The position numbers were made by a program, and so were the translations under genes. From positions 1 to 45,429 of the forward strand of contig JAMDCQ010000004.1 of NCBI GenBank assembly GCA_023488905.1: a DNA stretch of 45,429 nt, given 5' to 3'. Below the pieces are notes generated by a model that saw only the letters and a program-made list of their open reading frames with translations, was not told where the DNA came from and did not search any database. Of this stretch, positions 5,618 to 40,598 are shown piece by piece; position 1 is the stretch's first letter, and each line of letters opens with the position of its first letter. Source of the DNA: Candidatus Bathyarchaeota archaeon. Its GTDB lineage: Archaea; Thermoproteota; Bathyarchaeia; Bathyarchaeales; Bathycorpusculaceae.

Positions 5618-6379
5618 GTGCCCCTAGTATTTATCATTGGAACCGCGGGCAGCGGCAAATCCCTTTTCACTGCAGCGTTTGCAGAGTGGCTCAAAATGAG
5701 CAAGCAAGACGTAGCAATCGTCAACCTTGACCCCGGCGCACTCAAATTACCCTATCAACCGGACGTGGATGTCCGCAACTATGTGGATGTCGGTAACTTG
5801 ATGGAGAAATACAACCTCGGCCCCAACGGTGCCCTGATTATGGCTGCGGATTTGATTGCGGACGAAATCGAAAACCTAACCCGCGACATAGACGAAGCCC
5901 ACGCTGACCTCGTATTAGTCGACACACCGGGTCAGATGGAGCTTTTCGCGTTCCGCGCCTCTGGACCATACATAGTCAATGAATTAACCAGAGAACCAAA
6001 AGCGCTCATCTACCTCTTCGATGCAGTCTTCTGTGTAAACCCATTCAATTACGTTTCAAACATGTTCCTCTCCGCAGCAGTCTACAACCGCTTCTTCCAG
6101 CCACAGCTGCATGTACTCTCAAAAGTTGACTTGGTGCCAAAAAAGAATGCTCAAGAAGTTGCCTCGTGGTCAGCGAACTCGATGGCGCTAGAAGACGCCC
6201 TCCAATCCAAACGGGAAGACACCAAACGCATATTCAGCCAAAACATGATGCAAGCAATCAACAAACTAGGCATGAAATTCCTATTGATGCCCACATCCTC
6301 AAAAACAAACGAGGGCATGGTCAACATCAACACTACCCTTGAACGCATCTTAAACTACGGCGAAAAATACACAACCTAA
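5618..6379 (+). CDS. GPN-loop GTPase
   Basis: A 253-residue P-loop GTPase. Walker A is GTAGSGKS at residues 8-15. The family signature Gly-Pro-Asn is at 68-70 (NLGPNGALI), and DTPGQMELF is the G3 region. The G4-type SKVDLV is also present. Archaeal and eukaryotic GPN proteins form homodimers that close the active site with the GPN loop. In eukaryotes they assist RNA polymerase II assembly, and the archaeal role is less clear. The start is a GTG at 5618, because the Walker A strand PLVFIIG follows directly. The gene converges on the next one with a 4-bp overlap of stops. Confidence 0.92.
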   Translation: MPLVFIIGTAGSGKSLFTAAFAEWLKMSKQDVAIVNLDPGALKLPYQPDVDVRNYVDVGNLMEKYNLGPNGALIMAADLIADEIENLTRDIDEAHADLVLVDTPGQMELFAFRASGPYIVNELTREPKALIYLFDAVFCVNPFNYVSNMFLSAAVYNRFFQPQLHVLSKVDLVPKKNAQEVASWSANSMALEDALQSKREDTKRIFSQNMMQAINKLGMKFLLMPTSSKTNEGMVNINTTLERILNYGEKYTT

Positions 6380-7002
6380 GCGCTGATTAGTGACCAACTG
6401 GCTGCAAATGCACCCCGCTTCGCTCTAAGAACAGACTCCGCCGACGCAACCACAATGGCATCGTTTTCTTGCGGCTGCAACTGCTCTATCATCTGTTTGG
6501 TGGTTTTTGGATACTGTTTTTCCATGTCATCCACGACAGACTCAATTCTCAAACGTCCATTTCGATAAACCATTACGAAGGCTTTACGTGCACCAGCAAT
6601 TATGGCGGCGTCACGCTGGTTTATACCTGAACCGACCTTTTCTCCGCAGTTCTTCACTAAAAAGGCATAGTTATACTCGTTTGGATTCAACTCTGACTTC
6701 CCGAAATCTATCTCTCTGGGGAAAATCTCTTCGAATTGGCGCCAAATGTTCTTGCCTTTTTCCGTTAATTCGCAACCCGCCTTCGATGCAGTTATCAGGT
6801 CTGCTTCGCGGAGTCGGCTGATGATGGTTCGGATTGCGCCGTCGCCTACGTTTAATTGCTCGGCAAGCTTGTTTCGGCCGATGGGTTTCTTCGACAGAAG
6901 TTGAAGTGCGTAGAACACATGGAATATAGTGAAACTCGTTGAGGGTCCAGGGGCTTTTTTGCCTGAGAGCTGTTGCATGAACTTTTTCAACGATGTCGCC
7001 AT
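6376..7002 (-). CDS. HTH protein, DUF4443-like
   Basis: A 208-residue protein. The N-terminal 80 residues form a winged helix (KKPIGRNKLAEQLNVGDGAIRTIISRLREADLI, then GCELTEKGKNIW). The C-terminal half (about 95-208) is a compact alpha/beta domain with NYAFLVK, GINQRDAAIIAGARKAFVMVYRNGRL and AIVVASAE. I associate this layout with the archaeal DUF4443 group, from memory and not searched. A small-molecule-responsive regulator is plausible. It overlaps the end of the convergent GPN GTPase gene by 4 bp. Confidence 0.72.
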   Translation of the reverse strand: MATSLKKFMQQLSGKKAPGPSTSFTIFHVFYALQLLSKKPIGRNKLAEQLNVGDGAIRTIISRLREADLITASKAGCELTEKGKNIWRQFEEIFPREIDFGKSELNPNEYNYAFLVKNCGEKVGSGINQRDAAIIAGARKAFVMVYRNGRLRIESVVDDMEKQYPKTTKQMIEQLQPQENDAIVVASAESVLRAKRGAFAASWSLISA

Positions 7003-7038
7003 GTTGATTCCACCTGATATTTAGCATCAACTAGATAC

Positions 7039-7443
7039 TTATAACTTATCGAAGCTGCGACTGCTGCCTATCTTGCAAGCTACCGCTGAAACCTCAACCA
7101 GCGCTCCTGCTTTAAGTTCACAGGCAACAGTTTGGCGTGCTGGGGGTGCCTCTGGGAAGTATTTTGCATATTCCTTGTTGAAGTCGCTGAAATGCGTCAT
7201 GGAGGAGAGGTAAACGGTTGTTTGGACGATGTCTTTTAGGCTAAAGTTGGCTGCTGCAAGGATGGCTTGGATGTTTTGCATTACCTGTCTTGTCTGGGCG
7301 GTGATGTCTGCTTCTATTAGTTTGTTGTCTTTTGGGTTTATGGCGAGTTGGCCTGATATGTAGAGTGTGCTGCCTGCTTGGATGGCTTGGCTGTATGGTC
7401 CTACTGGTTTAGGTGCATCTGGGCTTGTTACTACTTGTTTCAT
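7039..7443 (-). CDS. ridA: RidA family enamine/imine deaminase
   Basis: A 134-residue RidA/YjgF protein of typical length. It has the N-terminal GPYSQAIQAG, the SGQLAINP strand and PPARQTVACELKAGALVEVSAVA, with Arg103 and Glu117 at the family's ligand-binding positions. RidA trimers hydrolyse reactive 2-aminoacrylate and related enamines made by PLP enzymes. It lies just upstream of the HTH gene on the same strand, 36 bp apart, so co-transcription is possible. Confidence 0.92.
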   Translation of the reverse strand: MKQVVTSPDAPKPVGPYSQAIQAGSTLYISGQLAINPKDNKLIEADITAQTRQVMQNIQAILAAANFSLKDIVQTTVYLSSMTHFSDFNKEYAKYFPEAPPARQTVACELKAGALVEVSAVACKIGSSRSFDKL

Positions 7444-7613
7444 GGTGTGTCAGCATTGTTTTTGTGGGGGTTTTGGCTTTTAAACCCTTACGTGGTAGGT
7501 GAATAAGCGGCTGTTTTCATATTCTGTTTGGAATATTTTATTCAGAAAGCCATATAAGAAAAACTCCGAGTAAGCTATGCCTAACAAAACTTGTAAACGG
7601 AAGAGAGAACTCC

Positions 7614-8792
7614 ATGAAACGAAACGGAAAATATTTGTTCACATCCGAATCCGTCGGAGAAGGCCACCCAGACAAAGTCGCCGACCAAATCTCTGACAGC
7701 GTCCTAGACGCAATATTCGCCAAGGATCCCAAAGCGCGCGTTGACTGCGAAACCCTCGTCATGCAGGGCACAGTTATGATTACAGGTCAAATCACAACAT
7801 GCGCTTACATTAACATCCCAACCATCGTTCGTCAAACCCTAAGAGAAATCGGCTTTGACAACGCCAAAGATGGTTTGGACTGGGAAACCTGTGGCATCTT
7901 GGTTTCTTTAACTGAGCAGTCACCCGACATCGCCATGGGTGTCGATGCAACTAACGGTAAAGAGCAGGGCGCAGGCGACCAAGGCATGGTTTTCGGTTAC
8001 GCAAGTAACGAAACCAAAGAGCTTATGCCCTTGCCGATTCTGCTTTCTCATAGGCTTGTTAAACGTCTGGCGCAACTCCGCCACGACGGCACGATGCCCT
8101 ATCTGCGTCCTGACTGCAAATCCCAAGTTACTGTTGAATACGAAGGCGGTAAACCGAAATGCGTTAAAACCGTGGTCATCGCCGCTCAAAATAATGGCTC
8201 CGTGGAAGATACGGTGCTAAAGCAGCAGATCATCGAGAAAGTAATCAAGTACGTTATCCCCGCAAACCTGCTCTCTCCAGACGTGAATTACGTCATCAAC
8301 GGTACAGGCAGATTCGTCATCGGCGGCACACTCGCAGACTCTGGCTTAACTGGTCGCAAAATCATCGTAGACACTTACGGAGGCGTCGGCAGCCACGGAG
8401 GCGGATGCTTCAGCGGCAAAGACCCATCCAAAGTTGACCGCAGCGGATGCTACATGGCACGCTACATCGCCAAAAACGTGGTGGCAGCCGGCTTAGCAGA
8501 CCAATGTGAAGTCCAAATCAGCTATGCCATCGGCGTCGCTGAACCAATCAGCGTTCTCGTCAACACATACGAAACAGGCAAAATTCCAGACGAGCAAATC
8601 TTGGAATTAGTCAAGAAGAACTTCAACATGAAACCACGCGGAATCATCGACACACTCAACCTGCTACGACCAATTTACAAGAAAACCGCGTGCTTCGGTC
8701 ACTTCGGACGAGACGACGTTGAGTTCCCATGGGAAAGATGCGACAAGGCAGAGACACTCAAGAAAGACCTTGAGGCAGCCAAAAAAGCCTAA
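7614..8792 (+). CDS. metK: S-adenosylmethionine synthase, bacterial type
   Basis: A 392-residue methionine adenosyltransferase that makes SAM from methionine and ATP. It is the bacterial/eukaryotic form: [20 protein letters not shown] at the N terminus, [12 protein letters not shown] for the ATP/methionine loop, and [14 protein letters not shown] with the [17 protein letters not shown]-loop-like stretch. Most archaea use a different, highly diverged MAT, so this is a likely ancient transfer. Only one MAT gene is visible in the window. SAM from it would feed the radical SAM and methyltransferase genes nearby. ATG start with GAGAGAACTCC upstream. Confidence 0.95.
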
Positions 8793-9149
8793 ACCCTTCC
8801 CCCTTCACTTTGTTTATTTAATTTTGCTATAATTTCCTTCTATACGTCCCTTATTTAGAGGCATTGAACAGGGTTTTGTTGCTCTGAAGCGAACCCCTAT
8901 CCCTATTTAAAGGCTAAAAGGTCAGGTTCTTGGGGCAGGTAACTTCGTGTTGCGTTAAGCGTACGGTTTCGCCGCAGAGCTCTATCCCTCTATAGGTCTG
9001 TGCATAGAACCTCTAATAGGCGGCAAATATGTTGGTGCGGCGCTATCCCCTCTAGGTGCTGTGCATAGGTTGGATATTAGGCGCCAAATATGCTGGTTTC
9101 AGCTTGATTCTTATATCCACGACGCAATAGTCTCTGTTGAGGGTTAGGT
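8793..9149. other. intergenic region between metK and the DUF488 gene
   Basis: No gene is seen. It contains a T-rich stretch just after metK (about 8808-8838), two copies of a pyrimidine/TATA motif at 8844-8862 and 8891-8914, and an imperfect tandem repeat at 8982-9097. Confidence 0.6.
8982..9097 (+). repeat. imperfect tandem repeat, two 55-bp units, period 61
   Basis: Unit 1 is at 8982-9036 and unit 2 at 9043-9097. Both begin CTATCCC(C)TCTA. They share GTGCATAG and end (G)CAAATATG(T/C)TGGT. The units are diverged but clearly alignable. There is no open frame across them. A small structured RNA or a double operator are possible. Confidence 0.6.
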
Positions 9150-9725
9150 TTGAGCAAAGAAATCGAACTGACAGTTTTCACCATCGGGCACTCAACCCGC
9201 ACCTTAGAAGAATTCACCGAGCTACTCCAAACCTACCAAATCACCCTCCTCATAGACGTGCGAACCGCCCCCCACAGCCGCCACAACCCCCAATTCAACA
9301 AAGAAGCCCTCCCCGACCACCTCAAACCCCTCGACGTCAAATACATTCATCTGCCCGAAATCGGCGGCTTACGGCACCCCAACCGCAACAGCATCAACCT
9401 CGCCTTGGAAAACGCCAGCTTCCGCGGCTACGCCGACTACATGCAGACCAAAGAGTTCTCTGAGGCGTTGCTTAAGGTGATGGCGTTGGCACGGGAAAAC
9501 CGCCTTACCCTCATGTGCGCGGAGGCGCTACCATGGAAATGCCACCGAATCCTGCTTTCTGACGCCCTTGTTGCGCGGCATGTGCGGGTGCTGCATATCA
9601 TAAGCAAAACCGACACCATAACCCACCAACTAAACGAACTGGCGCATGTAGAGGGCTCCAAGGTGACGTATCCGCTATATAGTAAAGAGACGCCACAGAG
9701 AACACTAGTCGATTTCAGCCTTTAA
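9150..9725 (+). CDS. DUF488 family protein
   Basis: A 191-residue DUF488 protein. Hallmarks are the N-terminal TIGHSTRTLEEFTELL, LLIDVRTAPHSRHNPQFNKE and the Cys-containing LMCAEALPWKCHRILLSDAL. The family is widespread, and the conserved Cys and His suggest a nuclease- or rhodanese-like chemistry that has not been settled. TTG start at 9150, preceded by GAGGG. The gene is more GC-rich than the cassette that follows it, so the two probably have different histories. Confidence 0.85.
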   Translation: MSKEIELTVFTIGHSTRTLEEFTELLQTYQITLLIDVRTAPHSRHNPQFNKEALPDHLKPLDVKYIHLPEIGGLRHPNRNSINLALENASFRGYADYMQTKEFSEALLKVMALARENRLTLMCAEALPWKCHRILLSDALVARHVRVLHIISKTDTITHQLNELAHVEGSKVTYPLYSKETPQRTLVDFSL

Positions 9726-9751
9726 ATCAACACCGTAACAATGCAAAAGTA

Positions 9752-9760
9752 TTATATTTA
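9752..9760 (+). promoter_or_regulatory. TATA box of the radical SAM cassette
   Basis: TTATATTTA lies 23 bp before the GTG at 9783. That places the transcription start at or next to the codon and suggests a leaderless mRNA. Confidence 0.6.
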
Positions 9761-9782
9761 AGACGCAGGAACTAAGCAATCG

Positions 9783-10161
9783 GTGTACTGGTTGAAAATA
9801 CGATCTGACTTTGTCACTAATAGCAGTTCGGTGAGTTATATACTTACAATGAAAAAGGACCTCGCCGATCACATGAAAGATTGGTTTGTTCAAAGAAATT
9901 CAGAAGAATCCGCGGTTTATGAAAAGTTAAAAGAGATTATCGCAACTGGAGAACAGCGTAACAATTAACGGTGAAGAACTCTATGCAAAAACAGTAAAGT
10001 TTGATACTGGCGATACTTTAACAAATGGTCAGAATACGAGAGTTAACTTTCAAACGTTGTCTGATGAGGACCTGATAGCCTACATATACGGAGAGTATAT
10101 CCTAAATGGAAAAATCTCTAAACTAGGCGTTTTTGCAGCTACGTTAATAGAGTCGTATTAA
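9783..10161 (+). CDS. SDFVTNSSS-motif protein, apparent frameshift; putative radical SAM substrate
   Basis: Frame one (9783-9968) begins with GTG and gives YWLKIRSDFVTNSSSVSYIL, a Ser/Thr/Asn-rich N-terminal motif I recognise as recurring at the start of small proteins in many prokaryotes. The frame then ends early. The +1 frame is open from 9931 to the stop at 10159-10161. It encodes a coherent tail (ENSVTINGEELYAKTVKF ... GVFAATLIESY) with no start codon of its own. Joined, they give about 125 residues. Removing one A from the AAAA run at 9929-9932 restores one frame. The stop overlaps the ATG of the radical SAM gene (TAATG), so the two are translationally coupled. The function is unknown. 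Modification by the neighbour is inference. Confidence 0.65.
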
Positions 10162-11222
10162 TGTCATTTAGCATTTCTGAAAAAACACTCAGGAGACATA
10201 GTCCTGAGTATAATTTTTTAGGACTTTACGAAAAAGGGATCACTTTTAGATGGGGAAAAACTTTTCAAGAAAACCCAGCGTTAGCACCTTTTCCGGAACT
10301 GGCAGATATTTCAATTTCAAACAGTTGTAGTAAAGGATGCGATTTCTGTTATAGAGACAGTACGCCTAAAGGAAAAATTATGGATATTGATGCCTACAAA
10401 TTTGTTTTAGAACAATTGACATCACAAGAATATGGACCTGTCTTCCAAATAGCTTTAGGTGGTGGTGAACCAACAGAGCACCCCCAACTAGAAAAACTGC
10501 TATTAGAAACTCGAAAATACAAAATTATCCCTAATCTTACAACAAATGCAACAGCTGTTAGCGATGAGACACGTGAAGTTTTTAGAAAAACTTGCGGAGC
10601 GATAGCTATTTCGATGGCTTCACTGGAGTTAGAGTTCATCAAGAAAAATGTCCAACCATTTTTAGAATCGCAATTGAGAACCAATATACATTTTCTCTTG
10701 ACAAACAAATCGCTGAAAGAGGCAATTGAAATATTAAATGGGCGTTGGGACAGCGCACTTAATGGCGTTAATGCCGTAGTTTTTCTTACTCACAAAACCA
10801 TAGGCAGAGCTAAAAAAGAAAACAACCTAACACGCAACGATGAAATGGCACGATTTTTACACTTGGTTGACCAGAAAAAGTCAAAGCTTCATATTGGGTT
10901 TGATGCTTGTTTTGTGCCTCTGTTAATTACCGAAACAAAAGTGGATTGTCGATTTCTAGACTCATGCGAGTGCGGGTTCTTTTCAATATACATCAACGAG
11001 GCTTTAGAGGTAAAACCTTGCTCATTCGCAAATGATAATAGGTACACGTTCAGTCTCGAAAAGGAAACTCTCTCAAACATTTGGAACAATAAATTTGCCG
11101 ACTATAGAAAAAGGGTAACCCAACTTTGCACGTTGAATTGTAACCGAAAAGATGAATGTAGGGGCGGTTGTCTATTTCATTCAAACCTAAACTTGTGCAA
11201 ACCAAATAATTCATTTTCCTAA
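10161..11222 (+). CDS. radical SAM protein with SPASM-like C-terminal cysteines
   Basis: A 353-residue radical SAM enzyme. The [4Fe-4S]-SAM motif is CSKGCDFC (C56, C60, C63), followed by the SAM-binding GGGEPTEHP at about 100-108. The C-terminal third carries ten Cys (250, 263, 269, 271, 287, 323, 327, 333, 337, 346), including CTLNC and CRGGC. This resembles a SPASM or twitch domain with auxiliary Fe-S clusters. Enzymes of this build modify ribosomally made peptides or proteins, for example by thioether formation or by anaerobic sulfatase maturation. The ATG overlaps the stop of the TNSSS-motif gene. The pair is AT-rich relative to its neighbours and probably horizontally acquired. Confidence 0.88.
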   Translation: MSFSISEKTLRRHSPEYNFLGLYEKGITFRWGKTFQENPALAPFPELADISISNSCSKGCDFCYRDSTPKGKIMDIDAYKFVLEQLTSQEYGPVFQIALGGGEPTEHPQLEKLLLETRKYKIIPNLTTNATAVSDETREVFRKTCGAIAISMASLELEFIKKNVQPFLESQLRTNIHFLLTNKSLKEAIEILNGRWDSALNGVNAVVFLTHKTIGRAKKENNLTRNDEMARFLHLVDQKKSKLHIGFDACFVPLLITETKVDCRFLDSCECGFFSIYINEALEVKPCSFANDNRYTFSLEKETLSNIWNNKFADYRKRVTQLCTLNCNRKDECRGGCLFHSNLNLCKPNNSFS

Positions 11223-11225
11223 AGT

Positions 11226-12572
11226 TTAGCCTTTTTGTAGTTTTGCTATGAAGAAGCCGTTGCAGCTATGTACGTGTGGATAGAGGCGTTGGCATTGGGT
11301 TAAGCCGTTTAAGCCTGGGACGCCGATTTTGGGTTCAACCTCCACCAGCTTGAAGTCGGGGTGGGCTTTTAGAAACTGCTCGATCACGCCTTCGTTTTCT
11401 TCCAGCGTGATGCTGCAGGTGGAGTAAGCTAAGATGCCGCCGGGTTTGACTTTGTCGGCGCAGTTGTTAATCATCTGCAGCTGGATTTCACTCATGTTTT
11501 GGATGGATTTTGGGCTGAGGCGCCACTTCGCGGAGGGTTGCTTGGCGAAGACGCCTGAACTGGTGCATGGCGGGTCTAAGACGAGCAAATCAGCTTCTCC
11601 GACCAGGGGCACCGAAACCCGTGCGTCAGCGACCAGTGGGTCAGCAATTTTTGTGTCCATCCGAGCGGTCTCCTTCTGCCAAGTGCACATGCGTTTGGCT
11701 GAGAAATCCACCGAGATAATGGTGCCTTGGTTGCTCATGAGTTGGGCGATGAAGGTGGTTTTGGCGCCTGGAGCCGCGCAGATGTCGAAGACGGTGCTGT
11801 TCGGAGCGGGGTTTGCGGCTTGGGTGGCAAAGCAGCTGGCTTTATCCTGCACATAAAACAAGCCCTTTTTGAGGCTTGGCGACGTGTTAAGGGGCGCTTT
11901 AAGCTCCAAAACTTTATAAGTGTATTTTAGGAGTTCGACTTTTTCGAGTTTTGTGCCTTCCGTGGCCAGCTTAGTCACGATTTCCTCTTCGGAAGCGGCA
12001 AGGGTGTTTACTCGGATGTAGGTGGGCGGGGGGTTGAGGCTGCCTTTGAAGAAAGCGGTGGCTTCTTCTTTGCCGAAGAGTTTGGTGAGGTATTCAACGA
12101 ACCAGGTTGGGTGGAAAGTTTCAAGGGCAACGCGCTCGGTTTCGCTGGCGGCTTCGAGGATGGGTGCAAGCTGCCGCGTTAACAGAAAACCCAAAAACGG
12201 CTCCACTTCGCGCATAACTTCCCAGCCCAAAATCGCTCTGCCCAAACTTGCGATGGATTCGGCTTCTTTAAGGTGGATTTTGCCCCAGTTTTTAGCGACG
12301 CGCGTCTGGTAAACGTAGAGGCGCAGAAACGCTTGGATGCCTTGGTTGTATTCGCCTATTTTTTTGGGTGCCACCACCGTGTTGACGAGTTTGTCGATGA
12401 GGTTTTTGCGCCTTGTGGTTTCAACGACTAAGCCGTATGCGAGGCGCATGGCCTGCGGGTTGCTTATGCCCAGCTGCTTAGTTGTACGCACCAGCGCTGA
12501 GCGTTCGTTTAGGCGGCGTAGTTCCATCCAACTCAAAGTTTCTATAGCGATTGTCCAAGCTTCCCGCAACAA
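11226..12572 (-). CDS. RsmB/NSUN-family m5C RNA methyltransferase with NusB-like domain
   Basis: A 448-residue protein. Residues 1-140 are helical and NusB-like. A pre-catalytic segment (about 155-240) leads to the Rossmann methyltransferase: DICAAPGAKTTFIAQL (SAM), DPPCTSSG with C336 and YSTCSITLEENE with C386, the two Cys needed for the m5C reaction and product release. This family methylates cytosine C5 in rRNA or tRNA. The NusB plus methyltransferase layout matches bacterial RsmB. Archaeal homologues act on tRNA or rRNA, and the target here cannot be told. TTG start. Its 3' end lies 3 bp from that of the radical SAM cassette. Confidence 0.9.
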   Translation of the reverse strand: MLREAWTIAIETLSWMELRRLNERSALVRTTKQLGISNPQAMRLAYGLVVETTRRKNLIDKLVNTVVAPKKIGEYNQGIQAFLRLYVYQTRVAKNWGKIHLKEAESIASLGRAILGWEVMREVEPFLGFLLTRQLAPILEAASETERVALETFHPTWFVEYLTKLFGKEEATAFFKGSLNPPPTYIRVNTLAASEEEIVTKLATEGTKLEKVELLKYTYKVLELKAPLNTSPSLKKGLFYVQDKASCFATQAANPAPNSTVFDICAAPGAKTTFIAQLMSNQGTIISVDFSAKRMCTWQKETARMDTKIADPLVADARVSVPLVGEADLLVLDPPCTSSGVFAKQPSAKWRLSPKSIQNMSEIQLQMINNCADKVKPGGILAYSTCSITLEENEGVIEQFLKAHPDFKLVEVEPKIGVPGLNGLTQCQRLYPHVHSCNGFFIAKLQKG

Positions 12573-12727
12573 ATCAGTTCACACTCCAACCAAATGCATC
12601 GCCCTAAATAAGCAATTCAACACGCGCCACTGTAACTGCATGTAAACAGCCACATAGCTTTATCAATTTTTCAATTGTGCTAGAGGAGTTGTGTTCTGGG
12701 GCAGACTCCAAGTGGGAGGTGAAGTAT

Positions 12728-12859
12728 TTGTCCAGAAGACGAAAAGACATGGATATGGAGTGGGATAAGGGTAAGATGACGGTTCAGGAAGCAGGCAAAA
12801 AAGGCGGCTCACGCGCCCGCGAACTCGGTGAGGAAGACAGGGAACGCACAGAAAGATAA
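12728..12859 (+). CDS. short KGG-motif protein
   Basis: A 43-residue, very charged peptide. The start chosen is the TTG at 12728, because a strong GGAGGTGA sequence sits at 12715-12722. The C-terminal part, MTVQEAGKKGGSRARELGEE, has the KKGG motif found in many small archaeal and bacterial stress-associated peptides. It continues only 25 residues past the motif, so there is one KGG unit rather than the usual two or three. No function is assigned. An upstream GTG at 12677 is also open but lacks a ribosome binding site. Confidence 0.5.
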   Translation: MSRRRKDMDMEWDKGKMTVQEAGKKGGSRARELGEEDRERTER

Positions 12860-12929
12860 GTGCGTACAAAAATAGCCGCACACATCAGCTTATCCAACTT
12901 TTCTTTTTCTATTCAGAGGAGACTTAAGG

Positions 12930-13112
12930 ATGAATTCAAGTCAAATGGTCAAGCGCCGAGTGACACCCCAAACCCGCGCGGGGCAATACATGTGTGCTGA
13001 ATGTGGCAAAATCTTCGACACCAAAAAAGAAGTAGACAGCCACCGACGCAAAAAGCATGGATCACAACTCAAATCGGTCCATGACGCACTCAACGGCCTA
13101 TACACCGAATAA
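12930..13112 (+). CDS. single C2H2 zinc finger protein
   Basis: A 60-residue protein with one classical finger: C22-x2-C25-x12-H38-x4-H43 (CAECGKIFDTKKEVDSHRRKKH). The N-terminal 20 residues are basic. Single-finger proteins of this size are common in archaea and are presumed nucleic-acid binding. Promoter and ribosome binding site (GAGGAG) lie upstream, and the gene stands alone. Confidence 0.8.
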   Translation: MNSSQMVKRRVTPQTRAGQYMCAECGKIFDTKKEVDSHRRKKHGSQLKSVHDALNGLYTE

Positions 13113-13219
13113 GCCCAAGTTTAGGCGGAAAATACCGATTTCTGTAGGGATACCTCTATTCGGTTTTTGAGCAAGTTTATTTAGCCCAAACCAAAATAGA
13201 ACCTCTGGAGACCCCCGCA

Positions 13220-14020
13220 GTGAAGCCAACACCTAAAAGTCAACGCAAACTCATCCTTACCCACGACGTTGACTGGCCATTTAGGGGCCCCGGCAAAGCA
13301 CACGTTTTGGCAAGGCAGGACAGGTTTTCGCCTGAAATCATCCAGAAAGTCCAAACCGAAGACTTCAACCCCTACTTCGGCGTTCCTAGGGTCAGGGAAA
13401 TTGAAGAGAAATTCGGGGTTAAATCAACCTTCTTTTTTAGACCCGTCTATGACGACGGATGCGAAGTGGGCGAGTACAGCCAAACCATACGCGACCTCTT
13501 GGCGCATGGCTGGGAAGTGGGGTTGCACGCCAACAACACCGCCATGCAGCAAGATGTGGACAGAGAAAAAGCGCTCATCGAGAAAGCCGCGGGAACCCAA
13601 ATCGATGGCTGCAGGATTCACTGCCTAAAAATCTGCGACAACACTTACCCAAACTTCGCAAAAGCAGGCATAAAGTACGATTCATCCATCTCGTTTGATA
13701 AGCACCGTATTGACTCCAGAAACACGGGGCACCTTACCAGAAACGGGGTGGTGGTGTTTCCAATCACGTTTATGGATGCTTACCTGTTTACTTACATGGG
13801 GCAAACCGAAGAGACTATCGTGCCCTTCATCGTTAAAACCGTAGACCAGCTTTATGAGTCAGGCGCAGAAATCCAAACACTACTATGGCATGACAACGCA
13901 GTCATGATGCGAGGCGGCAGAGTATACCCCCAACTAATCGAGCAACTCATCAGCAGGGATATAACGTTTTTAACTGGAAGACAAGCCTTTAAACAGGTAC
14001 AAGAGGCAACACAGCGATGA
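13220..14020 (+). CDS. polysaccharide deacetylase-like protein
   Basis: A 266-residue NodB-fold protein. The metal-binding motif appears as LTHDVDWP (D16, D18), with VGLHANNT (H103) as the histidine motif and LWHDNAVM near the end. Members deacetylate N-acetyl sugars or act on related amides. No signal peptide is visible, so the substrate is probably a cytosolic sugar or sugar nucleotide. It is the first gene of a tight operon: its stop overlaps the ATG of the ATP-grasp gene (ATGA). GTG start at 13220 after CCTCTGGAGACC. Confidence 0.82.
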   Translation: MKPTPKSQRKLILTHDVDWPFRGPGKAHVLARQDRFSPEIIQKVQTEDFNPYFGVPRVREIEEKFGVKSTFFFRPVYDDGCEVGEYSQTIRDLLAHGWEVGLHANNTAMQQDVDREKALIEKAAGTQIDGCRIHCLKICDNTYPNFAKAGIKYDSSISFDKHRIDSRNTGHLTRNGVVVFPITFMDAYLFTYMGQTEETIVPFIVKTVDQLYESGAEIQTLLWHDNAVMMRGGRVYPQLIEQLISRDITFLTGRQAFKQVQEATQR

Positions 14021-15099
14021 CCAACATTTTGGTAACTGGGGCAGGCGGCTCAGGCGGCATAAGCTTCATCCGCGCACTCCGACTGGCAGAACAACAAAAA
14101 AAACTCAAACCCTTCATCGCATGCACCGACCACAACCCGCATTTCCTCAACTTCCCCGACTCCGACGCCCACTACCACTCACCCCGACACGACGACCCCA
14201 CCTTCATTCCACTCCTGCAAAAAATCATCCAAACCCACAACATCGAATTCCTCCATCCCCACCCGAGCAGCGAAGCCCAAATCGTCGCAGAAAACCTAAA
14301 GCAATTCGAAAACGTCAAAACCTACCTCCCCAAACCCACCGCCATCATGCCAGACAAACTCCTCATCCACAACGCCCTGCACAAAAAAGGCGTCAGGGTG
14401 CCCAGAACCGTCGAAGTCAACACCTTCGCAGACGTGGAAAAAGCTTTCAAGAAAATCGGGAGCCCGCTGTGGATTAGGGCAAGGCGGGGCGCAGGCGGCA
14501 GACTCGGCTTGAAAATGGAAAACGTTGAGCAGGCGCGGCACTGGGTGGAACTTAACACGTCACAGGGCAGATGCAAGGTCTCGGATTTTGTGGCTCAAGA
14601 GTTTCTGTGTGGAAGAGATTTAGCGTTTGACTCACTCTGGTACAAAGGCAAATTGGTAACTTCTTACTGTCGAGAACGGCTTGAGTATTTCCTCAAACAC
14701 ATCTCACTCTCAGGTATCACGGGCACCCCAACCATCGCCCGCACGGTGATGGACGAGAAAATTGACCGCGTCGGCGTAGACTCAGTCAAAGCCCTCGACC
14801 CCCAACCGCACGGCTTCTATTCAACCGACATAAAGGAAGACTCCAAAGGCAACTGCGTCGTGACTGAAGTGGACGGCAAATGGCACACCACCGCACCACT
14901 CTGGGGGTACGCTTTCGCAAAAGCCTTCAACAAACCCGAACTAAACTTAACCTACCAATACCTCAAACTGGCATTGGAAGGCGAAACAGACGGCACCTTA
15001 CCCACCCACGACCTCTTCCCAGACAATTACCTCTTAGTGCGGCAGCTGGATGCAGGCGTTATGCTTGAACACGAGGACCAGACATGGCGAGTAGTGTAA
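14017..15099 (+). CDS. ATP-grasp ligase (carbamoyl-phosphate synthase-like)
   Basis: A 360-residue protein. It has an N-terminal pre-ATP-grasp domain starting NILVTGAGGSGGISFIRAL, then the ATP-grasp core with PLWIRARRGAGGRLGLKM (ATP-binding lysine/arginine region), VAQEFLCGRDLAFDSLWYKG and a C-terminal GNCVVTEVDGKW that carries the metal-binding acidic and polar residues. Such proteins join a carboxylate to an amine or thiol through an acyl-phosphate. The substrate is unknown. Its operon, with a deacetylase before it and a HAD phosphatase after it, suggests assembly of a modified sugar or small conjugate. Confidence 0.82.
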   Translation: MTNILVTGAGGSGGISFIRALRLAEQQKKLKPFIACTDHNPHFLNFPDSDAHYHSPRHDDPTFIPLLQKIIQTHNIEFLHPHPSSEAQIVAENLKQFENVKTYLPKPTAIMPDKLLIHNALHKKGVRVPRTVEVNTFADVEKAFKKIGSPLWIRARRGAGGRLGLKMENVEQARHWVELNTSQGRCKVSDFVAQEFLCGRDLAFDSLWYKGKLVTSYCRERLEYFLKHISLSGITGTPTIARTVMDEKIDRVGVDSVKALDPQPHGFYSTDIKEDSKGNCVVTEVDGKWHTTAPLWGYAFAKAFNKPELNLTYQYLKLALEGETDGTLPTHDLFPDNYLLVRQLDAGVMLEHEDQTWRVV

Positions 15100-31100: not shown

Positions 31101-32408
31101 TTAAAAATTAGGTTGATTGGGAGCGAATTCCCAGGCGATGTTGCCTTTCCAAAGTTCGCCTTTCTTTGTTAAGCGGATCTCGTTGTCGTCAGTCTCGAGT
31201 AAGCCCTCAGCTTTTAGCTTTTCAATTTGTTTCGGGAACACTTTTTCGGGGGTGGTGTTGAATTTCTCTTTGAACTCTTTTTTGCTAACTGGTAACCTGA
31301 GGTATAGTCGTGACATTGTGCGTCGCATCATGTCATCAGTTGTGGATTCAGATAATCTGGATATGGGCAGTTTTCCTGACTTGACCGTTTCCATGTAAGC
31401 GTTGATGTCTTCGAGGTTTGAGTAGCTGAATTTCTGCAGATACCCCATGAAGCAGCCTGCGCCAGTGGTTAAGATGCCTCCCCATGGCCAACCGTTGAGG
31501 CAGTTCTCACGCATGTGCCACTCGACGCGGCTGTAGCGGTCGTGCCCAACTGCTGAGTAGCCTGCTTTGGTAAGCATCTCGTGGGCTTTCATGAACATTT
31601 GCTTCTCGTATTCTGCGTTGCCTTGTGGGGGTGATTGGCCGTTCTTGATCATTTTTTCTAGGATGGTTCCGGGGTCGACGTGGAGGCTGTAGCAGTCGAC
31701 TTCTGCGTCTAACTCGATGGTTTTTTTGAGTGTGGCTTCCCAGCTTTCCATGGTTTGACCTGGCAGGTTGTACATGATGTCGGCGCAGACGACTAAACCA
31801 AGTTTACGTGCGTATCTGATGGCTTCCTCGACTTCTTTGGCGCTGTCTGGTAGGCAGAGGGCTTTGCGTAGTTTGTCGTCGAAGGTTTGCGCGCCCATGT
31901 CCATCTGGTAGACGCCGTATTCGGCGAGTTTTTTGATTTTTGGGAGGGCCAAGGTTTTTGATGAGCCGGTGACTTTGATGAAGTATTCTTTGCTTGTGTT
32001 AAAGTTCGCTTTGCAGAAGTCGATCAAGTCGATTATTTGTTCAGCGCTCAATACGCTGGGTGTTCCTCCGCCAAGTACGATTTCGTCGAAGTAGCTTGTT
32101 TTCACGTACTTGGTTTTGGCGTACATGGCGAGTTCTTTTTTGAGTAAATCCAAGTAGGGGCCAATCTGAACTTTGCTAGATGCGGTTGTTGGGAAATAGC
32201 AGAAGGCGCATCTTGAGTCGCAGACGGAAACCCAGGGTTGCAGCTCCATGAGTCTGCCTGAAGTGTTTTCTGTGTTAAGGAACTGCATGAATGATTCGTA
32301 GGTTTCGGGTTTTATATCGGGGTAATCTCGGTAGGTGTAGGGGGGCCAGTTTTCCCGTGAATCGTAGGCTTCTGTGGCGCCTTTTTGGGTTGCGGAGGCT
32401 TTTGTCAT
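31101..32408 (-). CDS. HemN/HemW-like radical SAM protein
   Basis: A 435-residue radical SAM protein with motif CDSRCAFC (C63, C67, C70), GGGTPSVLS, MGAQTFDDKLRKAL and NLPGQTMESWEATL. The C-terminal about 90 residues form a winged-helix HemN_C-type domain (MSRLYLRLPVSKKEFKEKF... RLTKKGELW). In true HemN/HemW the motif is C-x3-C-x2-C-x-C, but here the fourth Cys is Phe, so a different function in the family (such as class C methyltransferases or haem-degrading relatives) is possible. The protein is longer than HemW because of a 50-residue N-terminal extension. It is a single gene. Confidence 0.82.
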   Translation of the reverse strand: MTKASATQKGATEAYDSRENWPPYTYRDYPDIKPETYESFMQFLNTENTSGRLMELQPWVSVCDSRCAFCYFPTTASSKVQIGPYLDLLKKELAMYAKTKYVKTSYFDEIVLGGGTPSVLSAEQIIDLIDFCKANFNTSKEYFIKVTGSSKTLALPKIKKLAEYGVYQMDMGAQTFDDKLRKALCLPDSAKEVEEAIRYARKLGLVVCADIMYNLPGQTMESWEATLKKTIELDAEVDCYSLHVDPGTILEKMIKNGQSPPQGNAEYEKQMFMKAHEMLTKAGYSAVGHDRYSRVEWHMRENCLNGWPWGGILTTGAGCFMGYLQKFSYSNLEDINAYMETVKSGKLPISRLSESTTDDMMRRTMSRLYLRLPVSKKEFKEKFNTTPEKVFPKQIEKLKAEGLLETDDNEIRLTKKGELWKGNIAWEFAPNQPNF

Positions 32409-32802
32409 CGTTATCCCTTTGAATGTACGTTTAAAAACGCCTTGATACCATAATAAAGTTTACGCGAAATAAACCCAATGCGGACCAAGGGGCAGAGTGA
32501 AATAAAGGGATGAAAATGGTGGTGGTCAGGGGTTTTCTATCTTGAATCTTGAGATTTTTATTTAGCTTTTGTGGTTAGGATTTAGCATTTGTATATTTTG
32601 GGAACATTTTTGGGTAACTTTTTAGTTTCCGATAGGTCTTTTTTTGCTCTTTATTAACTAAAATACAAATTTTTATTAATTGTGATAAAAAATTAATTTA
32701 ATATTTATTATTTGTTAAAATAAAGTCGTTTATTCAACGTTTTTGGCAAATTATAAATACACAAAAAAACAACTAGCCACTACCTACTAAGGAGAAATAA
32801 AA
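32409..32802. other. AT-rich promoter region between HemW-like and PQQ-like genes
   Basis: The 394-bp divergent gap has no gene. Minus-strand TATA candidate: TTTTTAAACG near 32429-32438 for the HemW-like gene. The second half (about 32580-32770) is extremely AT-rich and holds the promoter of the surface-protein gene. Confidence 0.55.
32749..32760 (+). promoter_or_regulatory. strong TATA box of the secreted PQQ-like gene
   Basis: AATTATAAATAC is 43 bp before the ATG. A long A/T-rich stretch precedes it. AAGGAG sits about 8 bp before the start, so this looks like a high-expression promoter. Confidence 0.6.
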
Positions 32803-35430
32803 ATGAAAAAATCAAAATCTCTGGTAGCGATGTTTTTTTTGCTTGTTCTCACAATACCCATGATCGTACAGGTATCTCAAATAGCACCAGCGACAGCAGC
32901 AGAAGACATGCCAGTATACCTCAAAGTCTACGCTGAACCAAACGTAGTCGGTGTCGGCCAAATTGTCTACATCAGCCTCTTCTTTACAAAACCAATCCCC
33001 ATAGTCGGCGCAGCAGGAGGAGCCAGTCTCTACACGGGGCTAACCATCAACCTCATCAAGCCAGACGGATCCAACCAAACCTATGGGCCATACACAAGCG
33101 ACACCACAGGCGGCGTCGGCGGAATCGAATTCGTACCAGACACCGTAGGTAACTATACAGTTCAAGCATTCTACAAGGGGCAAATAATTAACGGTACAGT
33201 CTCTGGTAAAGTCTTTACCTACAACATACTCCCGACTCAAAGTGAAATTGCCACTTTCACCGTGCAAACAGAAGCAATCCCGGGCAATCTCGTTGTTCCG
33301 CTTCCAACTGAGTACTGGTCACGACCGATCTACGCCACTAACTATCAATGGGCGCAACTTGGTGGTAACTGGTGGGGCTTGGGAAAACCCTCCTTCACCG
33401 ACACCGGTGGATACGATGCACAGGGCAACAACTTTAATCCATACACCCAAGCGCCTAACTCACCACACATTATGTGGGTTAAGCCAACAGCGTTTGGTGG
33501 CCATGTCGGTTTACCCGTAAGCGCCGACCAAGAAAGCCAATATACCTCCACCTCAATCCTCTACCGACAATTCGAAACAGTTATTCTCAACGGCATCATA
33601 TACTACAAGCTCTACCCCAACACACCAACCACTGAAACCAGCACTGAAACACCTGGTTGGGCAGCAGTAGACCTCCGCACAGGCAAAACACTGTGGACCA
33701 AGAACACCAGCGATACTTTAGACTTCGCTTTTGTCATGCAGTTCCACACAGTGCAAGAATATGGCACGCAAGCATTCCTCGTCGGAAGCGCCAACAGTCC
33801 CCGACTGTTCGGTATTCCCCGCGCTGAAGGGTACACTTGGCAGCTATTCGATCCAATGACCGGATATTTCATTGCAAACATAACTAATGTGCCTGCGACA
33901 ACAGCCCCCGGATTAGTTGAAACCGAAGACGACAATGCACAAGGAGCAGTCTACATATACACGGTTAACGGTACCTATCCGAACCTAACTCTAACCATGT
34001 GGAATTCCACGCGATGCTTGCAGGGGCCAACAATGTCCTCTGTTATCCGTCCCTCTGGGAACATTAACTATACGCGAGGTTACCAATGGTCTGTTTCAAT
34101 ACCCTCAACCATCAACGGTGTAAACATCACTGACCTGACTAATACTCTGAAGAATCCAGCTCTAAGCATTGCAGCAAGGACAAACGAAGTTATCCTGCTA
34201 CGTGCTTACGGAGAAACTATGGATACTTTCGCAGCAGAATTCGGTGAGGGATCCGAAATTGAATGCGGCTTCAACGCTAAGACCGGTGAATTGATGTGGG
34301 GTCCAGTGAATAGAACCGTGCCAAAATACCACGAAGTAAGCGTTATAGCTGCAGGCAACGGCACTTACGTCGAGCAAGACAAAGACACAAACATCGCATA
34401 TGTCTACAATATGAAGACAGGCGCACAAATCGGAAGCCCAGTTCAACTCGTCGGCAACGCATTGAGCACCCTCTCAAGAGGCGGCGCCATCGCATACGAT
34501 AAATGCTACATCTGGGACTTCGGCGGCTACGTAAACGCCATCGACCTAAAAACCGGCAAACTCGCCTGGACCTATGAACCCCGACCCGCAGGATACAACA
34601 CCCCCTACGGAATCTATCCATTCTGGCACTTCGGCTCACACAGCATCGCAGACAGCAAACTTTTCCTCTCTGAAAGCCGCATGTACGACCCACCCCTATT
34701 CTCAGACGCACACAAAATCGTTCTCAACTGCACAGACGGCTCGCTAGTCTGGAAAGCCTTGGGCTTCTATGGCCGTGAACCAAGCGCCATCGCAGACGGC
34801 TACCTCGTAGCTTGGAACAGCTATGACGCTCAAATCTACACCTACGGCAAAGGCCCAACACAGATGACCGTTGATGCACCAAAAGCAGGCTTACAGTACG
34901 GGCAATCAGTAGTAATCAGCGGCACCATAACCGACATCTCCACAGGCACCACAGACGCCGACAGAAGCGCACGTTTCCCCAACGGAGTTGCAGCAGTCTC
35001 CGAGGGCAGCATGGAATCATGGATGGAATACATCTACATGCAGCAGCCTAAACCAACCAACGCCACAGGCGTCCCCATTGAACTGTTCGTTGTTGACGGG
35101 AACGGTAACTACCGCAGCATCGGCGCAGCCACAAGCACCGTCGAGGGCTACTTCAGCTACAACTGGGTACCAGACATCTCAGGACCATACATGGTATACG
35201 CGTCGTTCGCAGGCAGCGAATCCTACTGGCCATCCACCGCAGTAACCTCATTCGTAGTTGAAGGGGAACCTGAACCAACAACCGCACCCACACCGCAGCC
35301 TCAAACAATGTCAGAGCAGTACTTCCTACCCAGCGTCGCAGCAATAATCATCGTGATCATCATAATCGGCGCAATAATCTTGCTCATGCTACGAAGACTA
35401 CCACAGCTCTACTTTAACGACAAAAAGTAA
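32803..35430 (+). CDS. large secreted PQQ-like beta-propeller surface protein
   Basis: An 875-residue protein. It has a signal peptide (K-rich start, hydrophobic core, AATA before EDMP), an Ig-like domain (about 35-150), a propeller region with PQQ-type blades (DLRTGKTLWTKN, NAKTGELMWGP, DLKTGKLAWTYE), another Ig-like domain (about 690-815), a Pro/Thr linker and a membrane helix at about 843-865 followed by RRLPQ. It has many Asn-X-Ser/Thr sequons, consistent with N-glycosylation by the STT3 encoded here. A surface or S-layer-associated role is inferred. The strong promoter suggests abundance. Confidence 0.8.
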   Translation: MKKSKSLVAMFFLLVLTIPMIVQVSQIAPATAAEDMPVYLKVYAEPNVVGVGQIVYISLFFTKPIPIVGAAGGASLYTGLTINLIKPDGSNQTYGPYTSDTTGGVGGIEFVPDTVGNYTVQAFYKGQIINGTVSGKVFTYNILPTQSEIATFTVQTEAIPGNLVVPLPTEYWSRPIYATNYQWAQLGGNWWGLGKPSFTDTGGYDAQGNNFNPYTQAPNSPHIMWVKPTAFGGHVGLPVSADQESQYTSTSILYRQFETVILNGIIYYKLYPNTPTTETSTETPGWAAVDLRTGKTLWTKNTSDTLDFAFVMQFHTVQEYGTQAFLVGSANSPRLFGIPRAEGYTWQLFDPMTGYFIANITNVPATTAPGLVETEDDNAQGAVYIYTVNGTYPNLTLTMWNSTRCLQGPTMSSVIRPSGNINYTRGYQWSVSIPSTINGVNITDLTNTLKNPALSIAARTNEVILLRAYGETMDTFAAEFGEGSEIECGFNAKTGELMWGPVNRTVPKYHEVSVIAAGNGTYVEQDKDTNIAYVYNMKTGAQIGSPVQLVGNALSTLSRGGAIAYDKCYIWDFGGYVNAIDLKTGKLAWTYEPRPAGYNTPYGIYPFWHFGSHSIADSKLFLSESRMYDPPLFSDAHKIVLNCTDGSLVWKALGFYGREPSAIADGYLVAWNSYDAQIYTYGKGPTQMTVDAPKAGLQYGQSVVISGTITDISTGTTDADRSARFPNGVAAVSEGSMESWMEYIYMQQPKPTNATGVPIELFVVDGNGNYRSIGAATSTVEGYFSYNWVPDISGPYMVYASFAGSESYWPSTAVTSFVVEGEPEPTTAPTPQPQTMSEQYFLPSVAAIIIVIIIIGAIILLMLRRLPQLYFNDKK

Positions 35431-39206: not shown

Positions 39207-39631
39207 TTATGCTCTATTATTCATGAATGTTATTGCTAAAGATGTTTTCGATAAAAACTGAAAAACTGTTTTGGAAATGTTTGGGCTGTTTTGTTTTTGT
39301 TTGTCTCAGGTTAGTCTGATTTGTAAGAAAGCTTTTAAAAAATCAAAATGATATATTTTCTTAGGAATATATTTGGACGATAATCAAGAAAAAAGGCTTT
39401 GTTCGGTATGTTTTTTCTATCACCGGGCACAGCTTTGGTTTCTTTGTCGATCTTTGTGTTTTTCTATAACCCTCATGGCTGGTTTCTAATCTGGCCTTTT
39501 CATGTACTCGGGTTGATAATTGGGACTCTTTTAATTTATTTTTATATCTATGCTTGGAGGAAAAGATTTTTGTTTTTAATTCCAAGAATCTGTAATTGAT
39601 GAATAAACGGATACCATAACGCTAAAAATGG
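39207..39631. other. AT-rich boundary of the accessory island
   Basis: Apart from a possible small membrane peptide at 39399-39599, the 425 bp hold only promoter-like runs (a TATATTTT near 39352-39359 on the plus strand, TTTTTTAAAA near 39331-39340). Base composition shifts from here to about 43.0 kb. Confidence 0.4.
39399..39599 (+). CDS. possible small membrane protein
   Basis: A 66-residue frame (TTG at 39399, or ATG at 39408). It has two hydrophobic stretches, GTALVSLSIFVFFY and FHVLGLIIGTLLIYFYIYAW, and a basic tail. A TATA-like run lies about 45 bp upstream. No family is recognised, and the hydrophobicity may only reflect AT-rich DNA, so this call is tentative. Confidence 0.35.
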   Translation: MFGMFFLSPGTALVSLSIFVFFYNPHGWFLIWPFHVLGLIIGTLLIYFYIYAWRKRFLFLIPRICN

Positions 39632-39895
39632 CTAATTCTTTCCTTCTTGTTCGAGCCTTTTTTCTAACATTTGAATTCTCCCTTCAAGCTGCGAGATCGT
39701 AGCTGAAAGAAAGAACATTGCTAAGCCCATTCCGAAGATAAATGAACTTGCTATCACTGCTCGTGTTTCATCCCAAAGCGAACCTCTAAACGGTTCACCT
39801 ACAAAATATGCTAATACCCCAACAACCATAACAATAATGCCGTCTAATGTCAAAAAACTTGCCCGAGGTCTGTATTTTTCAATCATATTCAGCAC
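39632..39895 (-). CDS. small two-TM protein with C-terminal coiled coil
   Basis: An 87-residue protein. Two membrane helices (about 15-33 and 48-66) are joined by a short loop (EPFRGSLWDETRA). The C terminus (SQLEGRIQMLEKRLEQEG) is a short amphipathic, coiled-coil-like helix. Function unknown. Confidence 0.6.
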   Translation of the reverse strand: MLNMIEKYRPRASFLTLDGIIVMVVGVLAYFVGEPFRGSLWDETRAVIASSFIFGMGLAMFFLSATISQLEGRIQMLEKRLEQEGKN

Positions 39896-39971
39896 TGATT
39901 TCCATTTTGTTTGAAATGCAATATGACTTTATGCAGATACATGTTTTTCTGTGTTGCTTGTGGCAGTCTCT

Positions 39972-40421: not shown

Positions 40422-40590
40422 TTGTGGTAGTCTCCATCGGATCGACGTTGAGATGTCGAGCCTTTTCGTTAACTAAAACTCTAACGAGTTCAGCATCGCT
40501 TTGAACGTCATAGTACTTTTTGAGCGCATTAACTTTCTTAAGCAAATCAGCCTCAAATCCGAGTTTAACTATTTCTCTTTTTTCAACCAT
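40411..40590 (-). CDS. ribbon-helix-helix-like protein
   Basis: A 59-residue protein from the ATG at 40590; a GTG nine bases upstream is the alternative. The layout, EIVKLGFEADLLKKVNALKK then YYDVQSDAELVRVLVNEKAR, fits a beta-strand plus two helices of the MetJ/Arc type. The sequence resembles the divergently encoded 56-residue protein at 40742 (same helix spacing). It overlaps the nuclease-like gene, so it may be its regulator or antitoxin. Confidence 0.65.
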   Translation of the reverse strand: MVEKREIVKLGFEADLLKKVNALKKYYDVQSDAELVRVLVNEKARHLNVDPMETTTNGS

Positions 40591-40598
40591 GCAAATCA

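Follow-up and report, generated by a model that had tools for sequence, protein, structure and literature searches.

A radical SAM/SPASM-like enzyme and a portable N-terminal tag, its candidate substrate, in an archaeon, bacteria and phages

In a 45,429-nucleotide stretch of DNA from a Candidatus Bathyarchaeota archaeon (contig JAMDCQ010000004.1, assembly GCA_023488905.1; the whole stretch is called the window below), a gene whose product has an N-terminal Thr-Asn-Ser-Ser-Ser (TNSSS) motif runs directly into a gene for a radical S-adenosylmethionine (SAM) enzyme with a Cys-rich, SPASM-like tail. This arrangement raises the question of whether the enzyme modifies the product of its neighbor and, if so, which part of that product it recognizes. 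As a rule, a radical SAM/SPASM enzyme acts for a single peptide or a single family of enzymes. Comparison of related loci here identified an enzyme family that goes together with a fixed tag at the N-terminus of many proteins unrelated to one another; the loci come from an archaeon, from several phyla of bacteria and from phages. From the sequences and structure predictions described below, the enzyme is probably a maturase and the tag, portable between proteins, its substrate, modified in or near the T-N-S-S-S core.

Linkage of the enzyme to an N-terminal tag

An earlier search with a three-row enzyme alignment had found six viral loci, and a seven-row alignment scanned against a genome collection found 203 relatives, of which 80 loci were kept (loci and genomes are given L and G numbers). 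The enzyme-first count covers 85 readable loci, L016 having been dropped because its gene is cut by a contig end, and open reading frames (ORFs) shorter than 35 amino acids being excluded. In 82 of the 85 loci a tag ORF was present no more than 4 kb from the enzyme, for a total of 121 motif ORFs of at least 35 amino acids. All except one of these (120/121) are on the enzyme strand and none lies farther than 4 kb away in the flanks; the single minus-strand ORF (L055) is likely a chance match. Ten permuted motifs searched in the same loci gave only 0-3 matches within 4 kb and 0-2 farther away, compared with the 121 found within 4 kb, so that a chance or low-complexity motif was rejected as an explanation; the link between enzyme and tag far exceeds chance. 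Scored by a start-codon criterion, 56 loci have the tag gene upstream of the enzyme, 24 have it downstream, two have it on both sides and three have none, and at L092 the tag ORF is only 23 amino acids long, below the length threshold. The 80 genome loci belong mostly to Bacillota (59) and Bacteroidota (12), with one locus each in Bathyarchaeota, Aminicenantota, Verrucomicrobiota, Acidobacteriota, Synergistota, Kaiseribacteriota and Chloroflexota and two records without a phylum. The pair is also carried by rhizobial and Rhodobacter plasmids, and each of the three plasmids examined has a single tag site in its entire record, in an adjacent MKIK.DFVSNSSSTSF gene.

The association was also recovered when the tag was used as the starting point. 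A tag-first scan of viral contigs found 169 relatives, from which 76 loci were retained (a number of the contigs are near-copies), and the enzyme was in the fetched stretch of 67 of the 76 loci, or in 70 of 76 once the whole contigs of the nine misses were searched. For the six viral loci found by the window's own tag protein, the enzyme was on the contig in every case. Within 16 genomes that carry the cassette, the tag pattern occurs at 20 sites in 13 genomes, all within the cassette coordinates (backward control, 0); 15 of the 20 sites have the enzyme within 1.5 kb and the remaining five form the array of L076, 1.5-3.8 kb away. The three cassette genomes lacking a match carry G6 or Y7 tags, which fall outside the pattern.

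A similar specificity was seen within two families of genomes. In the family of G150 (the Lachnospiraceae locus L058), 14 of 200 genomes have any pattern match (the backward control gave six hits), and the spelling DFVTNSSS occurs in G150, G296 (three sites), G308 and G357, exactly the four genomes with a full-length enzyme. In the family of G151 (the Prevotella locus L043), the enzyme is present in four of 251 genomes and the pattern matches seven genomes, against seven hits for the backward control; [DG]FVTNSSS is found in only three of the matches (G151, G535 and G584), all with the enzyme. For the fourth enzyme genome, G386, the tag was inferred from L044, which has the same coordinates and a Y7 tag that escapes the pattern.

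The tag, with the consensus MKIR.DFVTNSSSSSF or MK(I)RxDFVTNSSSxS(F/Y), spans 16 residues and starts at residue 1. Among 142 tag ORFs of related loci (an ATG, GTG or TTG start was needed, the tag of L096 was excluded, and two or three likely chance matches are included), the Phe of the motif is residue 7 in 139. N10 is present in all 142, and K2, R4, D6, V8, T9, S11-S13 and S15 are near-invariant, while residue 14 is more variable and conservation declines past about residue 18. Among the seven commonest residues listed per position, Cys appears in residues 1-16 only at position 15, in 3 of the 142 ORFs, and the tag contains no conserved Cys, Lys-Trp pair or Glu-Tyr pair in this set. Up to eight tag genes with different bodies are arrayed beside one enzyme, and comparison of the codons for residues 7-16 within such arrays revealed 403 identical codons, 637 synonymous differences and 40 replacement differences, with serines encoded by both the TCN and AGY codon families. 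Since synonymous differences predominate and both serine codon families are used, selection acts on the amino acids and the tags are not recent copies; a DNA-level repeat or recent copying was rejected on the same counts.

The proteins that follow the tag are largely unrelated. With duplicate bodies and close pairs removed, the bodies of 284 distinct tag proteins form 50 sequence clusters, with 25 singletons. Counted from the motif, bodies at the enzyme-found loci range from about 40 to 711 residues. Of the 142 tag ORFs, 138 were taken into a tag-protein alignment; Pfam searches of these 138 found leucine-rich repeats in four and other families with one or two members each, and no sulfatase domain among the matches. 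The model of a tag protein from clade A, the clade of the window, has a mean predicted local distance difference test score (pLDDT) of 76.5, with residues 1-10 below 50 and the first strand beginning at residue 13. The tag is thus predicted to be a loose, disordered tail before a mostly folded body. A fold search with the model of this tag protein returned no match at E 0.001. The PHROGs family phrog_7397 matches 58 of the 138 tag proteins and phrog_7293 matches all 59 family enzymes searched; the PHROGs tables give neither family a function label and state no link between them. Among the titles and abstract openings listed by searches of an open-access library, none describes the tag or the tag-enzyme pair.

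These results revise the unit of the pairing. The sequence-only reading of the window had coupled the enzyme to the TNSSS protein; the two are indeed usually neighbors, although what is conserved beside the enzyme is the tag and not the whole protein. The same reading held that an enzyme occurring with different partners would defeat the substrate idea. The partners do differ in body, but since all of them share the 16-residue tag, the tag is the unit paired with the enzyme; the pairing idea survives and the objection of promiscuous partners was rejected. The related suggestion of a short precursor of a ribosomally synthesized and post-translationally modified peptide (RiPP) found no support, because a classic RiPP has a leader and a short C-terminal core, whereas here the motif is at residue 1 in 139 of 142 ORFs and bodies reach 711 residues.

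The tag also varies with the enzyme. When tags are mapped onto a 130-enzyme tree, the predominant residue changes only twice at position 4 (R/K), three times at position 9 (T/S) and twice at position 14 (V or A versus the rest), and all tag labels together require eight changes, compared with 56.6 when labels are shuffled. The tree joins long branches (the Lw1 type with the rhizobial type), a position that is not trustworthy, and relatedness contributes to this covariation. Tags on unrelated bodies at the same locus have a similarity of 0.873, compared with 0.830 for shuffled labels (0 of 1000 shuffles), and the tag thus follows the enzyme across unrelated bodies.

For two phages, the presence of tag proteins was predicted from the enzyme and then found. 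The enzyme of the RB43-type Escherichia phage Lw1 is 26% identical and has no tag gene beside it; a scan of the whole record (NC_021344), in which the enzyme lies at 89188-90342, identified two ORFs starting with MKIRSGFVSNSSSSSF, about 19 and 23 kb from the enzyme, both preceded by a ribosome-binding-like sequence as judged by eye; one of the two tag proteins is encoded at 66094-66558. A search of 50,697 phage records detected the Lw1 tag protein in 175 of them and its enzyme in 173, with organism tallies that are nearly alike (60 records of each set were inspected); these records come from close relatives and constitute one evolutionary case. Vibrio phage D479, which was detected through its enzyme but missed when the Lw1 tag protein was the query, encodes five tag ORFs, all with Phe at residue 7 (backward control, 0). 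A tblastn search of phages with a 36-amino-acid tag query gave no match, for which the low-complexity filter is the likely cause.

In addition, a second, sister family of radical SAM enzymes carries a tag-like motif, R.G[FLV]ATNSSS.HS, at its own N-terminus. This cis form was found in an enzyme encoded on a Methylobacterium plasmid (27% identity to the window enzyme over 71%, with His in place of the Phe of the motif), in the enzyme of Salmonella phage Arash and in nine viral relatives out of ten examined (12 had been detected), of which two appear identical. The tenth viral relative (L239) has a shorter enzyme and a separate tag-like gene upstream. The cis and trans tags have in common R4, D/G6 and T/S9-N10-S11-S12-S13, and our best guess from this comparison is that the common core comprises the recognition residues and the modified stretch, in which case N10-S13 would be important and F16 would not.

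The enzyme and its candidate reaction

The window enzyme scores 47.2 bits against the Pfam Radical_SAM profile (PF04055), above the cut-off of 29.5. Ten Cys had been noted in its C-terminal third, and ten were counted by eye in residues 250-346. The tail has the seven-Cys pattern of SPASM domains (C269, C287, C323, C327, C333, C337 and C346); its score against Pfam SPASM (PF13186) is only 16.1 bits, below the cut-off of 21.5, and the tail is accordingly called SPASM-like. In a 59-row alignment of the window enzyme and 58 relatives, drawn from 85 enzymes, six of these Cys are invariant and C323 is nearly so, and the TIGR04085 SPASM profile matches 44 of the 59 enzymes (E 0.001). Within the cluster motif, C56 and C63 are invariant in the 59 rows and C60 in the 31 rows of clade A. 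The motif is CX3CX2C in 30 of 30 loci of the window clade, 18 of 19 of the K4-tag clade and three of three of the rhizobial type, and CX7CX2C in the Lw1 and D479 enzymes. The SSSSSF clade mostly has an unusual cluster loop, CX7CX6C, found in 49 of 67 enzymes with an R4-T9-S14 tag. Among the enzymes of L011, L012 and L046-L096, others of this clade have CX5CX3C or similar, CX3CX2C being the usual form in radical SAM enzymes.

The nearest known folds include peptide-modifying enzymes. The best Foldseek match of the window enzyme model is SuiB (E 1.5e-13, about 16% identity), which is also the best, full-length match in a profile search for solved relatives (8.9e-10); other top folds include SkfB, the sactipeptide enzyme 5why, DesII and anSME (4k39, E 1.2e-9). 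The window enzyme (P0002) is below the cut-off of every NCBIfam model among the 25 listed of 31, the best being NirJ2 (50.1 versus 500), and scores 38.4 against the viperin model (cut-off 180). On these listed cut-offs it was rejected as a curated NCBIfam maturase or viperin. For the 58 other family enzymes the best listed NCBIfam E-value is 9.2e-18, E-values being the only scores for this set. The PADLOC pVip profile matches the window enzyme at 5.2e-12, over residues 52-158 only.

In the mechanism that we favor, the tag is a portable start carried by many unrelated proteins, and the enzyme would recognize the first 16 or so residues, with R/K4 and D/G6 as recognition residues, and make a radical-based modification at or close to the T-N-S-S-S core. 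The likeliest chemistries would be oxidation of Ser, as in formylglycine formation, or a crosslink formed without Cys (Ser, Asn or an aromatic residue), between which we make no choice; since the tag has no conserved Cys or Lys-Trp pair, thioether and streptide-type bonds are argued against as a shared product. The body would then be delivered with a modified N-terminus, the tag serving as a loose tail, most likely so that different bodies can act through one common partner in conflict settings such as phages and Avs2-linked loci. Several observations weigh against this interpretation. Two enzyme loci, L078 and L091, are without a tag; L091 is cut by a contig end, and at L078, with an SSSSSF-clade enzyme, neither strict nor relaxed motifs detected a tag gene in about 10 kb plus 7 kb of flanks. 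(A neighboring protein at L078 clusters, by reading, with leucine-rich-repeat-like proteins.) For six of the 76 viral loci found by tag, the enzyme is missing from the contig, and while these contigs may be fragments, two of them, 121 and 111 kb long and apparently from one virus, have four tags each, which tells against strict dependence unless the genome is incomplete or a host enzyme is used. In the G150 family, enzyme fragments occur in G279 and G359, neither of which has a pattern match, and near-tags occur in two genomes that lack the enzyme, G189 (DFVSNSSS) and G344 (DFVTNSTS). Tags on homologous bodies at different loci have a similarity of 0.878, on a par with the 0.873 for unrelated bodies that share a locus and compared with 0.825 for unrelated bodies elsewhere, indicating that body ancestry counts as well as the enzyme, and covariation would be equally expected if the tag merely bound the enzyme. 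Finally, the SPASM score of the window enzyme is below threshold, and all of the support is genomic or predicted, the modification itself being what we infer from it.

This reading has two main rivals. If the tag were a RiPP-type leader, the enzyme would bind it and modify the variable body; a common N-terminus with a variable rest, and up to eight such genes with different bodies served by one enzyme, fit the logic of one enzyme with many precursors. However, the bodies are long, a few belong to known folded families such as the leucine-rich repeats, the model of the window-clade body is mostly folded, and a modification site common to 50 body clusters is unlikely. The conserved stretch is in turn short and includes the invariant N10 and near-invariant S11-S13, so that we regard a leader as a fairly unlikely explanation. 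The tag could instead be a docking peptide, with the enzyme acting on a nucleotide, cofactor or small molecule and the tagged proteins being carriers, sensors or regulators. Linkage and covariation would then appear identical, the genomic contexts vary widely, and the window enzyme has the weak viperin similarity noted above, viperins being among both its fold and its profile matches. This similarity is limited to the SAM core, whereas SuiB, a peptide cyclase, ranks first by fold as well as by full-length profile, and docking without modification of the tag is in our view unlikely. A further reading, very improbable in our view, is that the tag directs sorting or assembly, such as packaging into virions, while the enzyme is a neighbor in the same mobile module that does not act on it directly. 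Arrays of small tagged proteins on phage contigs are consistent with such a signal, but genomes of an archaeon and of bacteria from several phyla also have the pair, in most cases with one tag gene or two. In addition, tag and enzyme covary, and enzymes of the sister family carry a tag-like motif of their own.

Comparison with known systems indicates what a tag maturase would have in common with them and where it would differ. SuiB is the cyclase that forms the Lys-Trp bond of streptide, and the substrates of the maturases compared here are joined or modified at Cys, Lys-Trp or Glu-Tyr. SuiB, SkfB, PqqE and the sactipeptide enzyme (5why/5wgg) resemble the present family in SAM core, Cys-rich tail and a genetically linked substrate, whereas identity is only about 16% (to SuiB), many relatives here have CX7CX6C or CX5CX3C rather than CX3CX2C, and the part conserved here is residues 1-16 of proteins that are long and not related to each other, without the conserved Cys, Lys-Trp or Glu-Tyr pairs; the absence of a conserved Cys likewise sets the tag apart from sactipeptide and other thioether RiPPs. 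The target of anSME is a Ser or Cys residue that lies within a short motif of a large protein, the sulfatase motif being of the (C/S)XPXR type. The fold of anSME is alike, but the tag does not fit this motif and starts at residue 1, and no adjacent or fused sulfatase substrate was found among the tag bodies or the listed clade A neighbors (25 families listed of 53 for 66 neighbor proteins). In multi-precursor RiPPs of the prochlorosin type, precursors have a shared leader and variable cores. As there, one enzyme has several adjacent substrates that share only the N-terminus; here, the conserved part is short, Ser/Asn-rich and at residue 1, and the bodies are long proteins. A parallel in biological setting is provided by the FxSxx peptides of NTP-dependent conflict systems (Kaur et al. 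2020, PMC7159879), whose motif is in a C-terminal peptide of peptide-processing systems tied to VMAP-ternary systems. In both cases a short motif with Ser and Phe is the predicted target of a radical SAM/SPASM enzyme in conflict neighborhoods; the present tag is N-terminal, longer and found on dozens of protein clusters.

More broadly, we lean toward the view that these loci encode a general protein-marking system, in which a new radical SAM modification is made on a 16-residue tag that has been moved onto about 50 unrelated bodies, in phages, Avs2-like loci and nitrogenase-type operons, the cis form included. If true, such a system would be the radical SAM counterpart of the lipobox or sortase tag-and-enzyme systems and would suggest that proteins are chemically marked in a manner not yet described. 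It predicts a new modification, with T9-S13 as candidate residues and Escherichia coli phage Lw1 as a model, and it would assign two unlabeled phage families, phrog_7293 and phrog_7397, as an enzyme and its likely substrate.

The window locus and its genomic settings

The arrangement first read from the window, a gene with an N-terminal TNSSS motif joined by TAATG to a downstream radical SAM gene, was confirmed (Table 1), but the single protein of about 125 amino acids proposed for the first gene was not. The TTG at 9792 opens a frame encoding KIRSDFVTNSSSVSYILTM... that ends after 58 codons, and a second frame, read from 9946 to 10161, encodes ...SVTINGEELYAKTVKFDTGDTL...ATLIESY; it is the stop of this second frame that overlaps the enzyme ATG. 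The two pieces align consecutively, over spans of 52 and 66 residues, to one intact 119-amino-acid homolog in L017, a same-genus archaeal sibling locus (genome G022) where the tag gene lies beside an enzyme 56% identical to that of the window. Because both pieces align to one intact homolog, the window tag gene is frameshifted. Aligned relatives have the gene in one frame, on which ground a programmed frameshift is disfavored; on sequence comparison, decay or a sequence error in the assembly is likelier, and the window system is probably non-functional or mis-sequenced at the putative substrate gene.

Table 1. Features of the window locus, with loci of the cis form in the last line
Feature	Coordinates	Strand	Remarks
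N-terminal tag, 16 codons	9792..9839	+	L/M-KIRSDFVTNSSSVSY, TTG start; sequence read directly
Tag protein gene, 5' piece, 58 aa	9792..9968	+	Stop codon 9966-9968; aligns to residues 1-52 of the intact L017 homolog
Tag gene, 3' remainder, other frame	about 9958..10161	+	VTINGEELYAKTVKFD...ATLIESY; aligns to residues 54-119 of the L017 homolog
Radical SAM/SPASM-like enzyme, 353 aa, ORF intact	10161..11222	+	AlphaFold2 mean pLDDT 92.6; best Foldseek match SuiB
[4Fe-4S]/SAM motif codons, CSKGCDFC (CX3CX2C)	10326..10349	+	C56, C60 and C63 of the window enzyme
SPASM-like Cys-rich tail, C269 to C346	10965..11198	+	Pfam SPASM 16.1 bits (cut-off 21.5); conserved Cys
Cis-form loci	L100 3485-4810; L228-L238; L240 2495-3925		Tag-like ATNSSS.HS at enzyme N-terminus

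The cassette had also been described as an AT-rich, transferred module, and both descriptions found support. The G+C content (GC) of the cassette stretch is 0.370, compared with 0.482 for the rest of the window, a level reached in five of 821 overlapping segments of the same size. The enzyme was found in two of 150 genomes, the window's own included, and the three window flanking genes tested were not found at the sibling archaeal locus. Given the low GC, unshared flanks and rarity of the enzyme, the archaeal pair looks laterally acquired. As a candidate for the own promoter suggested for the cassette, a TATA-like archaeal stretch was seen by eye at about 9748-9760, upstream of the tag gene. 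The neighbors are a DUF488 gene upstream and, by reading of the ORF list, a methyltransferase-like gene downstream on the opposite strand. No nitrogenase-type or Avs2-like partner was found near the pair; the largest ORF in 6000-15000 is at most 448 amino acids, so that no gene of Avs2 size is present there, PADLOC not having been run on the window flanks. Further AT-rich islands in the window are at 32001-33000 and 39001-43000 (GC 0.38-0.41), the GC elsewhere being mostly 0.45-0.54.

Elsewhere, one module serves several settings. At 13 loci, 12 in Bacteroidota and one in Aminicenantes (L018), a large gene of one family directly follows the enzyme, and all three of these genes tested match Avs2 (8.3e-103 to 4.1e-45). 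The arrangement of Avs2-like gene, tag and enzyme is possibly an undescribed Avs2-type defense operon, and these neighbors connect the system to phage-host conflict. The loci concerned are L018, L020, L034, L036-L040, L042-L045 and L067, the large gene beginning at the enzyme end. Cassettes of the rhizobial type contain a gene annotated with a SMEK domain, and the one tested has SMEK_N and a weaker similarity to Avs2. In Bacillota and Acidobacteriota, the window clade instead has the pair together with homocitrate-synthase-like and nitrogenase-like genes (nine loci for each cluster, the nif-type names resting partly on sequence reading) and metal transporters. Pfam searches of the 66 clade A neighbor proteins identified HMGL-like (7), FecCD (8) and AnfO (2) domains. 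One of the clade A pairs, at L035, belongs to Ruminiclostridium hungatei. Nitrogenase-like neighborhoods with homocitrate synthase-like, AnfO and Fec-type transporter genes are spread among L021-L041, though not at all of these loci. Finally, on one viral contig (L006, IMGVR_UViG_3300010998_000001) a set that by reading resembles a diversity-generating retroelement, with a target-like ORF, a small accessory ORF, a template-like stretch and a reverse transcriptase ORF, occupies 695-2979 directly before the enzyme and three tag genes.

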